27,075 nucleotides of DNA from positions 1-27,075 of IMG/VR virus record IMGVR_UViG_3300033141_001638; one strand, given 5' to 3'. The stretch is from a virus. Below, piece by piece: positions 777 to 20,535 of the stretch (position 1 is its first letter; every line of letters begins with the position of its first letter). Below the pieces are notes generated by a model. The model was not told the origin of the DNA and searched no databases. It saw nothing but the letters and a program-made list of their open reading frames with translations. Both the position numbers and the translations under genes were made by a program.

Positions 777-1882
777 AACATCGACGACTGAACGCCGCTC
801 CTCAAGTCCTTCACCACCATGTCGACATAGGCGGGGTCTGGCTCTATGCAGATCGCGCGCCTCGCCTCGCTTGCTGGCAACTCCTCGCAAGCCATGGCGG
901 CCCTGCATGTCCCGCCGAACGGCTCAAGCACCACGTCGCCAACGCGGGAGGATGAGCGAATCAGCCTATCGTAGAAACTCAGCGGCTTCTGGCATGGGTG
1001 ACTCTCACCGGCGCCAGTCTTCAGACGCGCAAGCCCAGCGACGGTTGGAGAACGCCACACGTTGCCGATTCCGGTTGGGTGGAAGAATGGCGAGCGGGCT
1101 GCCTCGTACTCAGCGCGGAGGTGGTCGTACTCAGCGCGGAGGTGGTCGTACTCAGCGCGGAGGTGGTCGTACGAGGCGCGGAGATCTCCGCCAGGCCAGA
1201 CGCTTGGGTGGACGAGGTAGGGTCGGTCTCTGTGTTGCCCATGCTCCGTCATTGCCTTGGCGCAGGTTTGATAGTGCTCCCAGATAGGAAATGACCCACC
1301 TTCCCAGTTGCTGACACAGCCAGTCAGACCACCAGTCCTGCTCGGAAAGTAGGCAGCCAAGCCCTTGACGTTGAGTCTGGCGGCGAGCCGCTCGGACTTA
1401 AAGAAGGCTGGCATCGGGTTGCGCTCGTCGGCGCCAGCCACGTCGGCGATCTCCGCGCCAGCCCCGCCGTCGAGGTTCCACTCGTCGCGCTGGTAGTGGT
1501 CGCATACTTCGGTGTAGTCCAGCCATTCCCGCATTCCCGCCGCTCCTATGTCCGCCTTCGATCCCCCCTTGTCCCAGATGATTCGCGTCTTCCTTCGCCA
1601 CCCCATCGACTCCACCAACTCCCGCAGCGCGCTTGCGCTGTCATCGGTGCCCCAGACGTACAGGTTCGCCGATGGCTTGCAGATGCGCCCAACCTGCTCC
1701 AGGTGCGGCCGATACCACTCGCGGAAGTGGTCCCACGACTGGAAGCAGTCCCAGTCGGCCTTGCGCATGTTGTACGGGCCGTCGAGTATCGCGAGGCTGC
1801 ATAGGCCGTCTGGCAGTGACGGCGCTATCTTGTCGAAGGTGCCTTGGTGGATGGTCGACCTGCTGCTCTTGTATGCTTCCAT
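773..1882 (-). CDS. Beta-class site-specific DNA methyltransferase (N6-adenine or N4-cytosine)
   Basis: A 369-residue enzyme that would transfer a methyl group from S-adenosylmethionine to phage DNA. The catalytic motif IV comes first, as a DGPY variant of DPPY at residues 34-37. The SAM-binding motifs are C-terminal: HPCQKP (motif X region), then GDVVLEPFGGTC around residues 315-326, then the acidic CIEPDP. Motif order IV, target-recognition region, X, I marks the beta class. The central recognition region contains a heptad-like run, LRAEYDH repeated, at about residues 238-258. I chose ATG 1882 because GGAGAGGAG lies just upstream; an in-frame ATG at 1912 lacks one. No partner restriction enzyme is visible, so an orphan, anti-restriction role is likely. 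Both DGPY and FGGTC depart from consensus, but neither looks disabling. Confidence 0.9.
   Translation of the reverse strand: MEAYKSSRSTIHQGTFDKIAPSLPDGLCSLAILDGPYNMRKADWDCFQSWDHFREWYRPHLEQVGRICKPSANLYVWGTDDSASALRELVESMGWRRKTRIIWDKGGSKADIGAAGMREWLDYTEVCDHYQRDEWNLDGGAGAEIADVAGADERNPMPAFFKSERLAARLNVKGLAAYFPSRTGGLTGCVSNWEGGSFPIWEHYQTCAKAMTEHGQHRDRPYLVHPSVWPGGDLRASYDHLRAEYDHLRAEYDHLRAEYEAARSPFFHPTGIGNVWRSPTVAGLARLKTGAGESHPCQKPLSFYDRLIRSSSRVGDVVLEPFGGTCRAAMACEELPASEARRAICIEPDPAYVDMVVKDLRSGVQSSMF
1109..1171. repeat. Three exact 21-bp direct repeats inside the methyltransferase gene
   Basis: The unit begins CTCAGCGCGGAGG and ends TGGTCGTA. It occurs at 1109-1129, 1130-1150 and 1151-1171 with no mismatch, and degenerate partial copies flank it on both sides. 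On the coding strand each unit is one heptad (Y-D-H-L-R-A-E). Because the unit is a multiple of three, copy-number change would keep the frame and only alter linker length. Confidence 0.95.
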
Positions 1883-3356: not shown

Positions 3357-3603
3357 CGTCCACCTCCACCGCGTCCAAGTCTTCAAGAGGAGCCCACAAC
3401 TCCACCGTCACAGCACACACGCACTGCTCCCCCACCAGCGCGATCGGCTTCATGCCGGCCACCCCGCCAGGCCCGCCTACGTCGGCGCAGGGCTGGTTGC
3501 AGGCGGTGAGGTCGGGCTGCTCTTGCGGCGCTGGTGTGTCGAGGGACCACGCGGCGAAGAGGATGAAGGCGGGGATTGCGGCGAGTCGGAAGAGGTCGCT
3601 CAC
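3349..3603 (-). CDS. Small membrane-anchored or secreted Cys-containing protein, 84 aa
   Basis: GTG 3603 overlaps the upstream stop as GTGA. The N-terminus has one or two charges and then a hydrophobic run (LAAIPAFILFAAW, residues about 7-19), read as a signal anchor or signal peptide. The remainder is soluble, with four cysteines in two pairs (CNQPC and CVC) and an acidic tail, which suggests a disulfide-bonded domain outside the cytoplasm. With the lipoprotein gene at 3994-4725 it is one of two exported products in the left arm. A role in blocking superinfection is conceivable but not shown. Confidence 0.6.
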   Translation of the reverse strand: MSDLFRLAAIPAFILFAAWSLDTPAPQEQPDLTACNQPCADVGGPGGVAGMKPIALVGEQCVCAVTVELWAPLEDLDAVEVDGD

Positions 3604-3890
3604 GACTGCTCCTGTTTGCGCTTCCAGTCGACCAACTCGAAGAGGATCGGCCAAGGGAGGGTGACCATCTCAGCGGTGTAGCCCATGTGGCCGTGGCTTT
3701 TCTCGCCCTTGGTGGTGAGTCCGCCGCTGTCAGTGACGGCGCCGAGGTCGCTGTCGTCGAAGTAGATCTCTGGCTCGTCACTCTCGGTGTTCGGGTAGAC
3801 GACCAACTCAGCGCTGGTGTGTAGATCCCGAATGGTATCGCCATGCTTGGCAGCGAAGTCAGCCTGGAGAGTGTTGAAGTATTCGTTCAT
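3600..3890 (-). CDS. Hypothetical acidic protein, 96 aa; first gene of the operon
   Basis: ATG 3890 has GGAG seven bases upstream and lies 44 bases downstream of a clear promoter, so it should be the first gene of the leftward operon. The protein is acidic in the middle (TESDEPEIYFDDSDLG) with a C-terminal hydrophobic/aromatic helix and a basic end (LVDWKRKQEQS). The open frame extends upstream to 4019, but that part crosses the promoter and was discarded. I do not recognise the family. Confidence 0.7.
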   Translation of the reverse strand: MNEYFNTLQADFAAKHGDTIRDLHTSAELVVYPNTESDEPEIYFDDSDLGAVTDSGGLTTKGEKSHGHMGYTAEMVTLPWPILFELVDWKRKQEQS

Positions 3891-3933: not shown

Positions 3934-3961
3934 ACTATAGCACGGCGAAACATGGCGACAA
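3934..3961 (-). promoter_or_regulatory. Sigma-70-like promoter of the leftward small-gene operon
   Basis: On the minus strand: TTGTCG, a 16-bp spacer ending in CGTGC, then TATAGT. The TGC before the -10 also makes an extended -10. Same design as the promoters at 13228-13255, 15942-15969 and 20508-20535. Transcription would begin near 3927 and reach the ATG at 3890. Confidence 0.75.
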
Positions 3962-3993: not shown

Positions 3994-4725
3994 TCAGTCG
4001 ATCCGCCCATCACAGTCATTGTCGGCCCCGTCCATCACTTCAAGCCCCAGCGGATGCGCCGAAGCATCCCCGTCGTCGCAGTCGCCCGGCTCATCAGCCC
4101 AAGCGTCGAGATTGCCCACGAGTTCCCACGGGGCACAGGCGGTCACCGCGATCCGGCTGTCGCCCCACCCATCCCGATCGAGGTCGGCGTACCAGGTGAA
4201 GGTGTCGGCCGGGGTCTCGTCCACCATGCCGTCGCAGTCGTTGTCGATGTGGTCGCACCACTCAACCGAGGTTCCAGGGTGGGTGTCCGCGTCCTCGTCG
4301 TCGCAGTCGTCGCCGCGCGCTGAGGAGTCCTCAGGAGGAGCGCAGGAGACCAGCGCAGCGCCAGTCCCGTAGCCATCGCCGTCCGCATCGAGGTAGTAGG
4401 TCAGCCCCGCGCCCTCGTCGATGAGCCCGTCGCAGTCATTGTCCAGGCCGTCGCAGAACTCCTCGGCGCCCGGGTAGGTCCACCCGCTGGAGTCGTTGCA
4501 GTCGCCGCCGACATCGGTCATCGCCGGGAGGAGTTCGCAGGCCACCATCCAGCGCTCGGGGTCTCCGTGGCCGTCTCCGTCGGTGTCGGCCCACTGGAGG
4601 ACCGGGGTGCTGCTGGCGTCGAAGTCGTTGCAGTCGATGCTCGCGGGCCAGCCGTCTCCGTCCGCGTCGAGATCTGGGGTGAGAGGGGCAGTGGTGGTGC
4701 AGGCGAGTAGCAGGAAGAGGGTCAT
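3994..4725 (-). CDS. Lipoprotein with three MopE-type metal-binding repeats
   Basis: A 243-residue protein with a very short lipoprotein signal: hydrophobic LFLLLAC with the lipobox cysteine at residue 9. The mature part is three repeats of the MopE-type module (PF11617-like), each with an Asp-rich loop and a C-terminal signature. Unit 1 is DTDGDGHGD to CDGLDNDCDGLIDE (about 47-104). Unit 2 is DADGDGYG to CDHIDNDCDGMVDE (about 113-170). Unit 3 is DLDRDGWGD to MDGADNDCDGRID (about 181-243). The Asp loops resemble calcium-binding loops. Unit 3 has lost the first cysteine of its signature. The gene overlaps the HNH gene stop (ATGA) and has GGAG upstream. MopE repeats are, as I recall, common in Myxococcota surface proteins and unusual for a phage. 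A surface role after infection or during lysogeny is inferred. Confidence 0.85.
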   Translation of the reverse strand: MTLFLLLACTTTAPLTPDLDADGDGWPASIDCNDFDASSTPVLQWADTDGDGHGDPERWMVACELLPAMTDVGGDCNDSSGWTYPGAEEFCDGLDNDCDGLIDEGAGLTYYLDADGDGYGTGAALVSCAPPEDSSARGDDCDDEDADTHPGTSVEWCDHIDNDCDGMVDETPADTFTWYADLDRDGWGDSRIAVTACAPWELVGNLDAWADEPGDCDDGDASAHPLGLEVMDGADNDCDGRID

Positions 4726-5081
4726 TCGTTCTCCAGGGGTTGTGCAAGTCGTTGGACGCGGGCTGCGATGATCTTGTTCATGGTGTCGGCGGACCGGACG
4801 GGGGAGAAGGGTAGGGTCTCCTCATCCTCGGATTCGGCCTGCCTGAGTCTCATGTGCTGCTGGTTGTGGCAGGGGCGGCAGAGCGTGATCCCGTTGTCGA
4901 CGTCAAGCGCCACCTCGGGGTGCCTGTCCTTGAGGAGGATGTGGTGCGCCACGAGGTCCTCTTTGGTCTGGCAATGCTGGCAGGTGTGGCCGTCGCGTTC
5001 TCGGACCTTGTCCGACCACTGAGCCAGGGCGTAGGCGGTCGGGATCTTCACCAGCCTCAAGGGTGGGCGTTCGTCGCTCAT
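4722..5081 (-). CDS. HNH endonuclease
   Basis: A 119-residue protein with the complete HNH/McrA-type core: zinc knuckle CQHC (Cys34, Cys37), the catalytic VAHH (His46-His47), Asn63 in DVDNGITL, and CRPCHNQQH supplying the second cysteine pair and the final metal histidine. It would cut DNA with a divalent metal. In many cos-type phages an HNH protein lies beside the terminase genes and assists packaging; here it is close to them but on the opposite strand. ATG 5081 is chosen for GGAGAG upstream and the ATGA overlap with the regulator gene. The C-terminal 40 residues are acidic, then helical. Confidence 0.9.
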   Translation of the reverse strand: MSDERPPLRLVKIPTAYALAQWSDKVRERDGHTCQHCQTKEDLVAHHILLKDRHPEVALDVDNGITLCRPCHNQQHMRLRQAESEDEETLPFSPVRSADTMNKIIAARVQRLAQPLENE

Positions 5082-5416
5082 CGCATGCTCTCCAGTAGTT
5101 CGGCCAGCTGGGTCGCCTGCTTGTGGTGGAGTTCGTCCCACGCGCCAGCGATAGCTCGCAGCAGCCGCCCGCGTGGTGAGTCTGGCTCCTCATTGAAGAG
5201 GATCAGCTTTCCAGACCGCTCAAAGAGTTCGATCCGAAGCCTGGAAGGGTCAACAAAGTAGGCATCAGCTACCAAGACGATTTTGCTCGGAGTGATTGGC
5301 CTGTCCCTAACTTCGATATCGCGGATATGCGGGGCTGACATCCCCAGCGCTTCGCCCATTTCACCAGCAGTCAGGCCGAGTCCTTTTCGGGCTTTTCTGA
5401 GATCAACCAGGTCCAT
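5078..5416 (-). CDS. Cro/CI-family (XRE) helix-turn-helix regulator
   Basis: A 112-residue protein. Residues about 5-55 form an XRE helix-turn-helix: LRKARKGLGLTAGEMGEALG, then SAPHIRDIEVRDRPITPSK. The C-terminal half is a small helical extension, perhaps for dimerisation, without a self-cleaving peptidase domain. The gene diverges from the terminase small-subunit gene, and a perfect inverted repeat lies in the shared gap, so autoregulation and control of the divergent promoter are likely. It could be a lysogeny repressor or a late-gene switch. It heads the operon with HNH and the lipoprotein. Confidence 0.8.
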   Translation of the reverse strand: MDLVDLRKARKGLGLTAGEMGEALGMSAPHIRDIEVRDRPITPSKIVLVADAYFVDPSRLRIELFERSGKLILFNEEPDSPRGRLLRAIAGAWDELHHKQATQLAELLESMR

Positions 5417-5432
5417 TTTTCGTCCGAGGCGG

Positions 5433-5484
5433 TGAGGCGTCGTTGCCTCATTCTGTTATAGTCTATCCCATGACCGGACCACAA
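5433..5484. promoter_or_regulatory. Divergent promoter region with inverted-repeat operator
   Basis: TGAGGC at 5433-5438 and GCCTCA at 5445-5450 form a perfect 6-bp inverted repeat with a 6-bp spacer; another GAGGC lies at 5426-5430. Leftward, TTGTGG (5484-5479), 18 bp and TATAAC (5460-5455) make a plausible promoter for the regulator gene. Rightward, TATAGT at 5457-5462 ends 7 bases before the ATG at 5470 and lacks a good -35. The inverted repeat overlaps the start of the leftward transcript and the spacer/-35 zone of the rightward one, as expected for an operator. Confidence 0.5.
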
Positions 5485-6309
5485 ACGCCAGCGCTGACAC
5501 CAGAGATGAAGTCCTGGCTCGACGGCCAACTCAAGGCGGGCGTCTCTGACTTCAGAGATCTCGCGCGAGGTCTGGCGAAGGCCAAACTCATCTCGAAGAA
5601 GTTGCCGGTCATGAGGTCCTATGTGCCACTCATCCGTCAGTACCTCATCGCGCACGAGGGACAGCGAGGCGTGACTCCAGGCTCGACAGCCAACGAAGTC
5701 CCGCCGCCCGTAAGCAACAGGGACATCAGATCGGGGCCCCGCGAGACGCCGAACATAGACCGACAGCAGCGCCGAGCAGCAGCGGACGCAGAGAAGCGCC
5801 AGAACGAGACCAACAAGGCGGCCAGGCGCGCCCACGTCGAAGCCGTGATCATGCGGGGCGGCCTGACTCGGATGGCCGTGCTCGAGCTATGCGCCAAGTG
5901 GGGGTGCAAGCCAACCGACATCAAGGCCGACGAGCGGATCGTGCTGGACTCGATGACCGAGCAGATGTCCTCGGAGTCAGTCCTTAGCTACACCGCCCGC
6001 TGGTTCAAGGGTATGGACCTCTTGATCGCCGAGTCCGCCGATCGGGGCGACATGAAGACAGCGATGCGCGGCCAGATCGCGATGGGGGAGGCGCTGGGCA
6101 TCCTCGGCGGGGCTGAGAACGCGGTGACCGTGGTGATCGGGGCCGAGCAGGACGCGGGGGTGTACGTCTCGCGCGACCCTGAGGCGCTGAGGCTGGCCCG
6201 GGTGAACCGACGGGCTCGGCTGATTGAGTTGAGGCAGGAGAGGGCGGTGCTGGCTGAGGAGCGGGGTGGGCTCGTTCTTGAGGCTGTGCACCCGGTGATT
6301 GAAGATTGA
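5470..6309 (+). CDS. Probable terminase small subunit
   Basis: A 279-residue protein directly upstream of the terminase large subunit, where the DNA-recognition subunit normally lies. The N-terminal 60 residues are helical and basic (DLARGLAKAKLISKK), compatible with DNA binding. A polar, Arg/Gln-rich linker follows (IDRQQRRAAADAEKRQ), then a helical C-terminal half ending in a long charged helix. I cannot name a family from motifs; the call rests on position and architecture. ATG 5470 is preferred to an ATG at 5443, which lies inside the operator. No Shine-Dalgarno is visible, and a TATAGT box sits 7 bases upstream, so the message may be leaderless. Confidence 0.6.
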   Translation: MTGPQTPALTPEMKSWLDGQLKAGVSDFRDLARGLAKAKLISKKLPVMRSYVPLIRQYLIAHEGQRGVTPGSTANEVPPPVSNRDIRSGPRETPNIDRQQRRAAADAEKRQNETNKAARRAHVEAVIMRGGLTRMAVLELCAKWGCKPTDIKADERIVLDSMTEQMSSESVLSYTARWFKGMDLLIAESADRGDMKTAMRGQIAMGEALGILGGAENAVTVVIGAEQDAGVYVSRDPEALRLARVNRRARLIELRQERAVLAEERGGLVLEAVHPVIED

Positions 6310-6320
6310 AGGAGCATGAG

Positions 6321-6455
6321 ATGAGCGAGTACATGGAAAACAAAGGCGGGTCGCTCTATATATATGACGAGGGCTTCAGGCACGGAGTGGTTGAGAGCGA
6401 TCTCGGACCGGGAGAATACGAACTCGTCTATGACGAGCGAGAGAAAGGCCAATGA
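6321..6455 (+). CDS. Tiny hypothetical protein, 44 aa
   Basis: ATG 6321 is preceded by AAGGAG at good spacing and follows the terminase small subunit gene by 11 bases. The protein is acidic and rich in Tyr and Gly (GGSLYIYDEGFRHGVV, then EYELVYDERE), looking like a small beta-rich domain. Its stop overlaps the next start as ATGA. No family is recognised; location suggests co-expression with the terminase. Confidence 0.6.
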   Translation: MSEYMENKGGSLYIYDEGFRHGVVESDLGPGEYELVYDEREKGQ

Positions 6456-6544
6456 ATCAGAAAGTCAACCATCGGCCCAATAAGCGTCAAGCGATTGGAG
6501 GACCTTTTGCGTGGAGCTCGGCTACTTGGAAAGTGGGAGGCTAA
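6452..6544 (+). CDS. Tiny basic peptide, 30 aa
   Basis: ATG 6452 overlaps the previous stop (ATGA), and the TAA at 6542-6544 abuts the AAGGAAGG ribosome-binding site of the terminase large gene. The peptide is basic and Trp-rich (NQKVNHRPNKRQ, then FAWSSATWKVGG). It may be a genuine peptide or only a coupling reading frame that brings ribosomes to the terminase start. Confidence 0.4.
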   Translation: MNQKVNHRPNKRQAIGGPFAWSSATWKVGG

Positions 6545-6550
6545 GGAAGG

Positions 6551-8143
6551 GTGACCACCGAACACCTCGACCTCCTCGAAGCCCAACTCCTCGACGTAGA
6601 CGCCGAACTCCGGCTGCTCGAAATCGAGGAGCGGGCCGACAACGCCGAACTCGCAATCCAGGGCGGGCGCGGAGCTCTCGCCGCGTTCGTGCGGTGGGCG
6701 TGGCCGATCGTGGAGCCGGGGGTCGTGCTCGAATGGTCGTGGTTCCTCGACCTGCTGTGCGAGGAGTGGGAACTCTTCATCAGCGGGAAGACTCAGGACC
6801 TCCTGATCAACATGCCGCCCGGGATGATGAAGAGTTTGATCGGGTCGGTATTCGTGCCGGCGTTCGACTGGCTGCACCAACCATATCGGCGCTCCCTGTA
6901 CTGCTCAGGTACGGCCAGCGTCAACAAGCGAGACAGCCGGCGCTGTAGGGATGTCATCCGGTCTGATGACTACATCGTGCTTGCAGCCGAGGCCGCGCGG
7001 CGCAGGGGTGAGGAGCCCTGGACACTCAAGAAGGACCAGTCTGAGAAACTGGATTATGCGAATACGATACAGGGCCAGCGCCTGTCTGTACCGCTGGGCG
7101 GTAGGATCGTTGGACAGCGCGGCAACATGCTGGTCGTCGATGACCCGCACGACGTGAAGGAGATCGTCCTGGGTGGACCCGACCAGGTCCGAAAGAGGCT
7201 CGCGGATCGCGTCCACATCTTCGACAAGGTGCTCCCCACCCGACTCAACGACCAGCGCAGGGACGGGCGCGCCGTGGTCATGCAGCGGCTGCACACCGAC
7301 GACGTGTCGGGCCACTGCATCCGAGAGGGCGGCTGGCGTGTGGTGGTGTTCGCCATGCGCTTCAACCCGGACAACCCTCACAACCACCCGAAGGACCCGA
7401 GGACCGAGCGCGGCGAGCTGCTGGACCCGGTGCGGTTCCCCGAGGAGGTGCTGCGGAAGCTGGAGAAGCGCCTTGGCCCGTCACAGGCTGCCGCCCAACT
7501 CCAGCAGGAGCCCCGCATAGTCGAGGGTCTGAGGTTCAAGCGCGAGTGGTTCCGAGTCTACAAAGGCCTCCCGACCGCGATCGCCATGGCTTGCCAGATG
7601 CTGGTGCTCTCGGTGGACTGTGCCGCGTCGAAGAATAAGGAGGCGGACTGGACTGTGATGGTGCTCTGGGGGTTCATGCGTGGGCGGCGGTATCTGCTTG
7701 ACCAGATCCGAGTAAAGAGCAACTACCCCGAGCAGAAGCGGGCTTTGCTTCTGATGTGGAACAAGTGGCGCAACGCTGGGGTCCGCAAGCTGCTGATCGA
7801 GAACAAGAGCAACGGGCTCCCGCTGATTGACGAGGCCTTGGTCGCAGGGATGCCCGCGATCGCCTTCAATCCGGGCTCCATCGGCTCCAAGGTGGACCGC
7901 GCCAGCTACACCGAAGGATGTGCTGAGGCCGGGCTAATCTACATCCCCGACGAGAAAGACGAGGCGTGGGTAGCTGATTGGGTGGATGAGCATTTGGCTT
8001 TTGGGCCTGGCTGCACGCACGACGACATGGTGGACGCGACCTCGCAGGTGATGTGCCACTGGGGGAAGGACTCGGGCACGGGGGATCAGGGGCTGGTTGG
8101 GGCGGACTTGGTCAAGCAGCAGTTTGCGTTTTTGCTTGGCTGA
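6551..8143 (+). CDS. terL: Terminase large subunit (packaging ATPase-nuclease)
   Basis: A 530-residue packaging motor. The N-terminal ATPase has Walker A as MPPGMMKS (residues 88-95) and Walker B as LVVDDP (193-198). The C-terminal RNase H-like nuclease shows the expected acids: LSVDCAASK (Asp356), LLIENKS (Glu417) and CTHDDMVDA (Asp491/492). Length and order match Terminase_6-type subunits that cut concatemers and translocate DNA into the prohead. The GTG start at 6551 follows AAGGAAGG. The protein begins with a Leu/Glu-rich helix (residues 5-30), a common small-subunit contact. Confidence 0.97.
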   Translation: MTTEHLDLLEAQLLDVDAELRLLEIEERADNAELAIQGGRGALAAFVRWAWPIVEPGVVLEWSWFLDLLCEEWELFISGKTQDLLINMPPGMMKSLIGSVFVPAFDWLHQPYRRSLYCSGTASVNKRDSRRCRDVIRSDDYIVLAAEAARRRGEEPWTLKKDQSEKLDYANTIQGQRLSVPLGGRIVGQRGNMLVVDDPHDVKEIVLGGPDQVRKRLADRVHIFDKVLPTRLNDQRRDGRAVVMQRLHTDDVSGHCIREGGWRVVVFAMRFNPDNPHNHPKDPRTERGELLDPVRFPEEVLRKLEKRLGPSQAAAQLQQEPRIVEGLRFKREWFRVYKGLPTAIAMACQMLVLSVDCAASKNKEADWTVMVLWGFMRGRRYLLDQIRVKSNYPEQKRALLLMWNKWRNAGVRKLLIENKSNGLPLIDEALVAGMPAIAFNPGSIGSKVDRASYTEGCAEAGLIYIPDEKDEAWVADWVDEHLAFGPGCTHDDMVDATSQVMCHWGKDSGTGDQGLVGADLVKQQFAFLLG

Positions 8144-13227: not shown

Positions 13228-13255
13228 ACTATAGCACGCTGTAACGACGCGTCAA
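13228..13255 (-). promoter_or_regulatory. Promoter of antisense cassette A
   Basis: On the minus strand: TTGACG (13255-13250), a 16-bp spacer ending in CGTGC, TATAGT (13233-13228). The start ATG 13206 follows a GGAGAACGAC leader. Facing rightward, a weak TTGACC at 13286-13291 with GATAGC downstream may restart transcription of the late genes. Confidence 0.8.
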
Positions 13256-15941: not shown

Positions 15942-15969
15942 ACTATAACGCAACGCCATGACAAGTCAA
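15942..15969 (-). promoter_or_regulatory. Promoter of antisense cassette B
   Basis: On the minus strand: TTGACT (15969-15964), a 16-bp spacer, TATAGT (15947-15942). The -35 matches the cassette C promoter exactly and the -10 matches cassette A. The -35 overlaps an ATG (15958) in the frame of the rightward head gene, which argues against that ATG as its start. Confidence 0.75.
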
Positions 15970-20507: not shown

Positions 20508-20535
20508 ACGATAGCACGGTGCTACAACAAGTCAA
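20508..20535 (-). promoter_or_regulatory. Promoter of antisense cassette C
   Basis: On the minus strand: TTGACT (20535-20530), a 16-bp spacer ending in CGTGC, TATCGT (20513-20508). Inside it, TAGCAC and GTGCTA form an inverted repeat around one base. The late-gene restart on the plus strand has a TACACT box at 20578-20583 without a good -35. Confidence 0.75.

Follow-up and report, generated by a model that had tools for sequence, protein, structure and literature searches.

A short MopE-repeat lipoprotein gene recurs as apparently mobile cargo in phages with a likely Myxococcota-like host

A contractile-tailed phage represented by an IMG/VR virus record of 27,075 bases (the whole stretch of DNA analysed here, hereafter the window) carries a gene for a 243-residue lipoprotein (3994..4725, minus strand) that is nearly all MopE repeat, and short lipoproteins of the same kind occur as lone genes in about ten other viral contigs. 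Since similar genes occupy different places in related phages, the view that this gene is a phage moron, or mobile cargo, is strongly supported. Lipoprotein morons as a kind and the MopE repeat family are already known, whereas MopE repeats as recurrent stand-alone phage cargo are new: no MopE protein linked with phages was found in the literature searched, and the lipoprotein had no match in PHROGs or, by tblastn, in INPHARED.

Results

To define the protein, we searched its translation against Pfam, in which membership of PF11617 is given by a score above the curated cut-off of 27 bits, and obtained PF11617 as the sole family (E = 2.1e-29, 101.9 bits); an NCBIfam search returned no useful family. 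The match falls into three stretches that individually exceed the cut-off, namely unit 1 (residues 75-104; 4414..4503, minus strand; 46.3 bits), unit 2 (residues 140-170; 4216..4308, minus strand; 37.9 bits) and unit 3 (residues 215-243; 3997..4083, minus strand; 39.8 bits). These results bear out the first-pass annotation, which had described a MopE-repeat lipoprotein and proposed the search with this profile. The layout is a degenerate half-unit followed by three DxDxDG plus PF11617 units, the last of which reaches the stop codon with nothing beyond it and is preceded by a 'WA' insertion that, among the loci fetched, is common to phage contig L017 and one cellular locus (L130). Asp makes up 21% of the mature protein (235 residues), which has 13 Cys, lacks Lys and carries a net charge of about -57.

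The open reading frame starts with ATG and is preceded, 5 nt upstream and within the neighbouring HNH gene, by a GGAG ribosome-binding site (4731..4734, minus strand); its GC3 and codon fit agree with those of the other genes of the phage. The translated N-terminus reads MTLFLLLAC-TTT, in which an uncharged leader of 8 residues (MTLFLLLA), devoid of basic residues, is followed by Cys9 (leader and Cys9, 4699..4725, minus strand), residues 6-9 forming an L-x-x-C lipobox (LLAC). To place this unusually short leader, of a kind that might trouble a standard signal-peptide predictor, we counted the residues that follow very short uncharged leaders with a lipobox-like triplet in the 404 proteins predicted from GC-rich cellular contigs with MopE genes and found Cys 14 times, about 8-fold or more over any other residue after normalisation for residue frequency. 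Because of this enrichment, short uncharged lipobox leaders seem to be normal in MopE-carrying bacteria, and the export that we predict for the phage lipoprotein is not contradicted by its leader.

The lipoprotein gene is the third of a minus-strand group that opens with a 112-residue HTH_3 (Xre/Cro-like) regulator (5078..5416; PF01381, 3e-9; PHROG transcriptional regulator, 7.7e-6), continues with a 119-residue HNH endonuclease-like protein (4722..5081; PF01844, 4.9e-6; PHROG HNH, 6.6e-14) and runs opposite to the packaging genes. Both junctions, HTH_3/HNH and HNH/lipoprotein, read as 4-bp ATGA overlaps, and the three genes therefore form one translation-coupled unit, confirming the coupling to a Cro/CI-type regulator and an HNH gene that had been noticed earlier. 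On the other side of a divergent intergenic region (5417..5469) with -10-like hexamers on both strands (TATAGT on plus, TATAAC on minus) lie a gene without a family match in the position of a small terminase (5470..6309, plus strand) and the large terminase gene (6551..8143, plus strand; PF17289, 8.6e-8, with TerL matches in phages). The same region holds a candidate operator palindrome, GAGGCAACGACGCCTC (5434-5449), which is uninformative as an operator because it occurs only once in the window.

Minus-strand blocks elsewhere in the window are preceded by a promoter-like motif, TTGNC-N13-GTGCTATNGT, at 3934-3961, 13228-13255, 15942-15969 and 20508-20535 (three exact copies and one with two mismatches, against 0.18 matches expected). 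The first of these sites (minus strand) lies downstream of the lipoprotein gene and opens the next unit (gene 3600-3890). We detected neither an exact nor a near copy upstream of the HTH gene, and none in the flanking parts of a sibling contig (see below); no clear terminator was seen for the lipoprotein gene. That the motif precedes other minus-strand blocks and not the HTH gene suggests that the lipoprotein is expressed together with the regulator and apart from the motif-bearing blocks.

The sibling contig (G001, 60,765 bases) represents the same phage, with 99.99% identity across the 10.7 kb that were compared, and adds 18.9 kb to the left and 14.8 kb to the right of the window. It carries the same locus with an identical copy of the lipoprotein gene, which rules out an assembly chimera and, together with the phage genes flanking the locus on both sides, contamination of the contig with host DNA. 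Rightward lie the large terminase, portal, major head protein and contractile-tail sheath genes, with an M15 endolysin gene further right, and leftward those for DNA methylases, RecT and a YqaJ exonuclease; within one of these methylase genes (N6_N4 methylase, 773-1912) we observed an in-frame tandem 21-base repeat (RAEYDHL repeats, about 1105-1180, minus strand) whose copy number could vary. A search for relatives based on the terminase retrieved no more than three short contigs besides the sibling. No match to a tyrosine integrase or resolvase family was obtained in the sibling, a contig that is possibly incomplete. The first-pass annotation had spoken of a repressor operon and of lysogenic conversion; the regulator is HTH_3/Cro-like and no more than a candidate lysogeny repressor, and a lysogenic state of this phage is unsupported because integrase and resolvase matches are absent from the sibling, so that lysogenic conversion stays conjectural, though an integrase is present in four other phage contigs with MopE genes.

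To determine how widely such genes occur in viruses, we used the repeat alignment to scan 2.9 million viral contigs and recovered 24 loci of two classes. The first comprises long VWA-plus-MopE lipoproteins on contigs whose GC content is about 45% or lower (L005, L022, L028-L031, L033-L039); these are proteins of 640-820 residues in which MopE repeats are combined with a VWA-like C-terminal part, on contigs of up to 191 kb, and in L005 an adenylosuccinate-synthetase-like gene (5532-6527, plus strand; PurA/PurZ-like by eye), which could indicate a phage with modified bases, lies close to the VWA-MopE gene. The second class comprises short lipoproteins like the one studied, present as lone genes in about ten other viral contigs and mostly on the strand opposite to their neighbours. 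Two of them adjoin TerL, one follows an integrase, one lies by an M15 endolysin and five lie within tail modules. The first-pass annotation had suggested a search for viral copies next to XRE or terminase genes; the two beside TerL are of this sort, the others residing in tail modules or by integrase and endolysin genes. Of the TerL-linked copies, that of L018 lies upstream of TerL and portal and carries a lamin-tail domain, and in that of L027 the MopE unit is weak and does not reach the Pfam cut-off; the L020 copy follows a tyrosine integrase and the L026 copy is the one beside the endolysin. A long form in L019 (3996-6053, plus strand) lies between endolysin and TerL. This protein and its counterpart in L184, which likewise follows an endolysin gene, have a Cys-containing hydrophobic end plus RRR that by eye resembles a MYXO-CTERM sorting tail (without an NCBIfam match).

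Three of the copies in tail modules reside in or beside modules homologous to that of the studied phage (27-52% identity), between the gpD-like and spike genes on the opposite strand (L017), immediately before the spike gene on the same strand (L024) and beyond the tail fibre gene on the opposite strand (L032). A related phage retrieved by a tail-protein search, L046 (and also L047), encodes a MopE lipoprotein with an RCC1 domain (4431-5678, minus strand) between tail genes and opposite to them. Across five phages related by their tails, MopE lipoprotein genes thus occupy four different sites. A further lipoprotein-like frame with a single degenerate MopE unit, on a 73-kb contig (L185, about 4782-5537, plus strand), occupies the opposite strand of a Mu-like tail module that is unrelated to that of the studied phage. 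The tail alignments (A2/A3) were built from MopE carriers, so that the 5 of about 14 phages with MopE in them is a biased rate; out of roughly ten phages found independently of MopE, L046 alone carries it. PF11617 is absent from several related contigs, which are for the most part fragmentary.

The best cellular relatives of the lipoprotein (42-48% identity) belong for the most part to Myxococcota and deltaproteobacterial MAGs, and also to Bacteroidota and CPR bins. In keeping with the earlier remark that MopE modules are typical of bacterial proteins, PF11617 is present in 159 of 189 genomes of the phylum to which a 'Myxococcales' MAG belongs, many with at least 40 matches each, versus 0 of 14 control genomes. 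The cellular MopE-repeat proteins of Myxococcota and related bacteria have the same units (40-48% identity, up to full length) and many have a short lipobox leader, yet most run to hundreds or thousands of residues and greatly exceed the 243 residues of the phage-borne protein. Relatives of the tail and head genes of the phage were likewise found in genomes of the Myxococcota phylum; two of the loci (L151, L170) resemble other Mu-like tail regions, and, among the stretches read, a search for prophages in the phylum did not yield an intact close relative that carries a MopE gene. Given the abundance of the family and these tail and head relatives in the same phylum, a Myxococcota-like host is likely, and the lipoprotein gene is probably of bacterial, Myxococcota-like origin ultimately.

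Although the family is named 'Cu-binding_MopE', we dropped copper binding as a candidate property. The PF11617 profile has been noted to be unspecific and to span just a small part of MopE/CorA (PMC6189053). MopE/MopE* of Methylococcus capsulatus (PDB 2vov) shares with the phage protein a unit of about 30-40 residues (DxDxDG...DC(D/N)D...DxxCDG), and the repeat profile aligns with residues 4-44 of MopE* (3.7e-6), whereas the copper site of MopE* consists of Kyn130, His132 and His203 (PMC3423442). The family name is no evidence for copper because only residues 4-44 align, away from the copper ligands and outside the copper site; the phage protein also lacks the beta domain, these three residues and, more generally, the Trp/Kyn plus two His of a MopE/CorA copper site. 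MopE* is calcium-stabilised during purification. After MopE*, the next-best sequence match of the profile is a weak one to acyloxyacyl hydrolase (E = 0.04), an enzyme for which calcium binding has been reported (PMC12898756); no further solved structures besides MopE* and acyloxyacyl hydrolases were matched. An AlphaFold2 model of the lipoprotein (mean pLDDT 87.7, pTM 0.58) gave acyloxyacyl hydrolase in 10 of 10 Foldseek matches to the PDB, the best fold matches covering about residues 44-89 of its large subunit (5w7a-f), with a best E of 1.3 and none significant. Acyloxyacyl hydrolase differs from the phage lipoprotein in being an animal enzyme and in having one unit only. On the basis of these comparisons calcium is the putative ligand of the DxDxDG loops and a better guess than copper.

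Discussion

What might such cargo do? In the reading that we favour, although at somewhat less than an even chance, the gene is a phage moron of bacterial origin whose product acts as an envelope-surface lipoprotein and alters the infected or lysogenic cell, most likely by superinfection exclusion or receptor shielding. The lipoprotein would be made from the HTH-HNH unit, with a timing presumably separate from that of the motif-bearing minus-strand blocks, exported, lipid-anchored at Cys9 and moved to the envelope surface. There its Asp- and Cys-rich units would form a rigid, strongly negative stalk, stabilised by disulfides and probably by calcium, and further phages might adsorb to, or inject into, the altered cell less well. 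Superinfection exclusion is our leading functional guess because an exclusion role is established for small phage lipoproteins such as Ltp; Llp of T5 and Cor-type proteins are further superinfection-exclusion lipoproteins of phages. In Streptococcus thermophilus phage TP-J34 the gene for Ltp belongs to the lysogeny module (PMC3952083), and like Ltp the present protein is a small phage-encoded lipoprotein, with a predicted surface position and a gene that travels with an HTH gene, but Ltp-type proteins serve in a different host envelope. No sequence or fold match relates the lipoprotein to known exclusion lipoproteins, and a positively charged end of the tape-measure protein, sought by analogy with Ltp as a partner for the acidic lipoprotein, was not found. 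The missing integrase and resolvase matches in the 60.8-kb sibling and a leader devoid of basic residues also speak against this reading.

A true lysogenic conversion with no anti-phage role, in which altered adhesion, aggregation, predation or metal handling would aid the host and hence the phage, is the next most likely reading, though an unlikely one. Hundreds of host proteins carry the same modules, some phage copies have acquired extra domains (RCC1 in L046, lamin-tail in L018), integrases accompany four of the MopE-phage contigs and other lipoproteins, the SitA toxins, are a known cargo of myxobacterial prophage-like elements, the Mx-alpha elements of Myxococcus (PMC5562445). These points have to be set against the undetected integrase and resolvase of the studied phage and the fact that no short MopE lipoprotein has a known host phenotype. 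The SitA parallel extends to a lipoprotein carried as cargo on phage DNA; the phage lipoprotein has neither a C-terminal toxin domain nor a cognate immunity gene. A SitA-like toxin is ruled out, as the protein ends in repeat 3 with PF11617 as the only match.

A role in lysis or release, by disrupting the outer membrane in a spanin-like manner or by keeping progeny off debris, appears rather improbable: the L026 and L019 copies do adjoin an M15 endolysin, but the studied gene is tens of kilobases from its endolysin (L015:9137-9592) and in another operon, spanin features are absent and other copies adjoin terminase or integrase genes. We regard it as very unlikely that the protein sits on the virion and serves adsorption; several copies do lie inside tail modules, yet they are mostly antisense to the tail genes, the protein has a lipobox, the studied gene lies outside the structural block, and the most similar phages have the gene at other sites while some related contigs have no copy. 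The gene could also be host DNA present by chance, neutral or transient and without a function for the phage, since capture would be easy from hosts in which the family is so extremely abundant; the intact frame, ribosome-binding site, phage-like codon fit and translational coupling of the gene, together with its recurrence in about ten phages, make this explanation improbable too.

For the studied phage, superinfection exclusion by a surface lipoprotein is our preferred guess. Its extension to the family, namely that MopE lipoproteins are recurrent mobile surface-modification genes of phages with Myxococcota-like hosts, which would have reused a host module as a calcium-stiffened acidic shield against superinfection, is one that we put forward tentatively and with considerable doubt. 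Were the host capable of outer-membrane exchange, a lipoprotein of this kind could moreover pass to uninfected kin. Little is known about the phages of Myxococcota-like bacteria, and these bacteria hold hundreds of MopE-repeat genes of unknown function. The small cargo form in about ten phages offers a minimal, one-domain form in which the family can be tested, and ties it to the conflict between phage and host at the cell surface.
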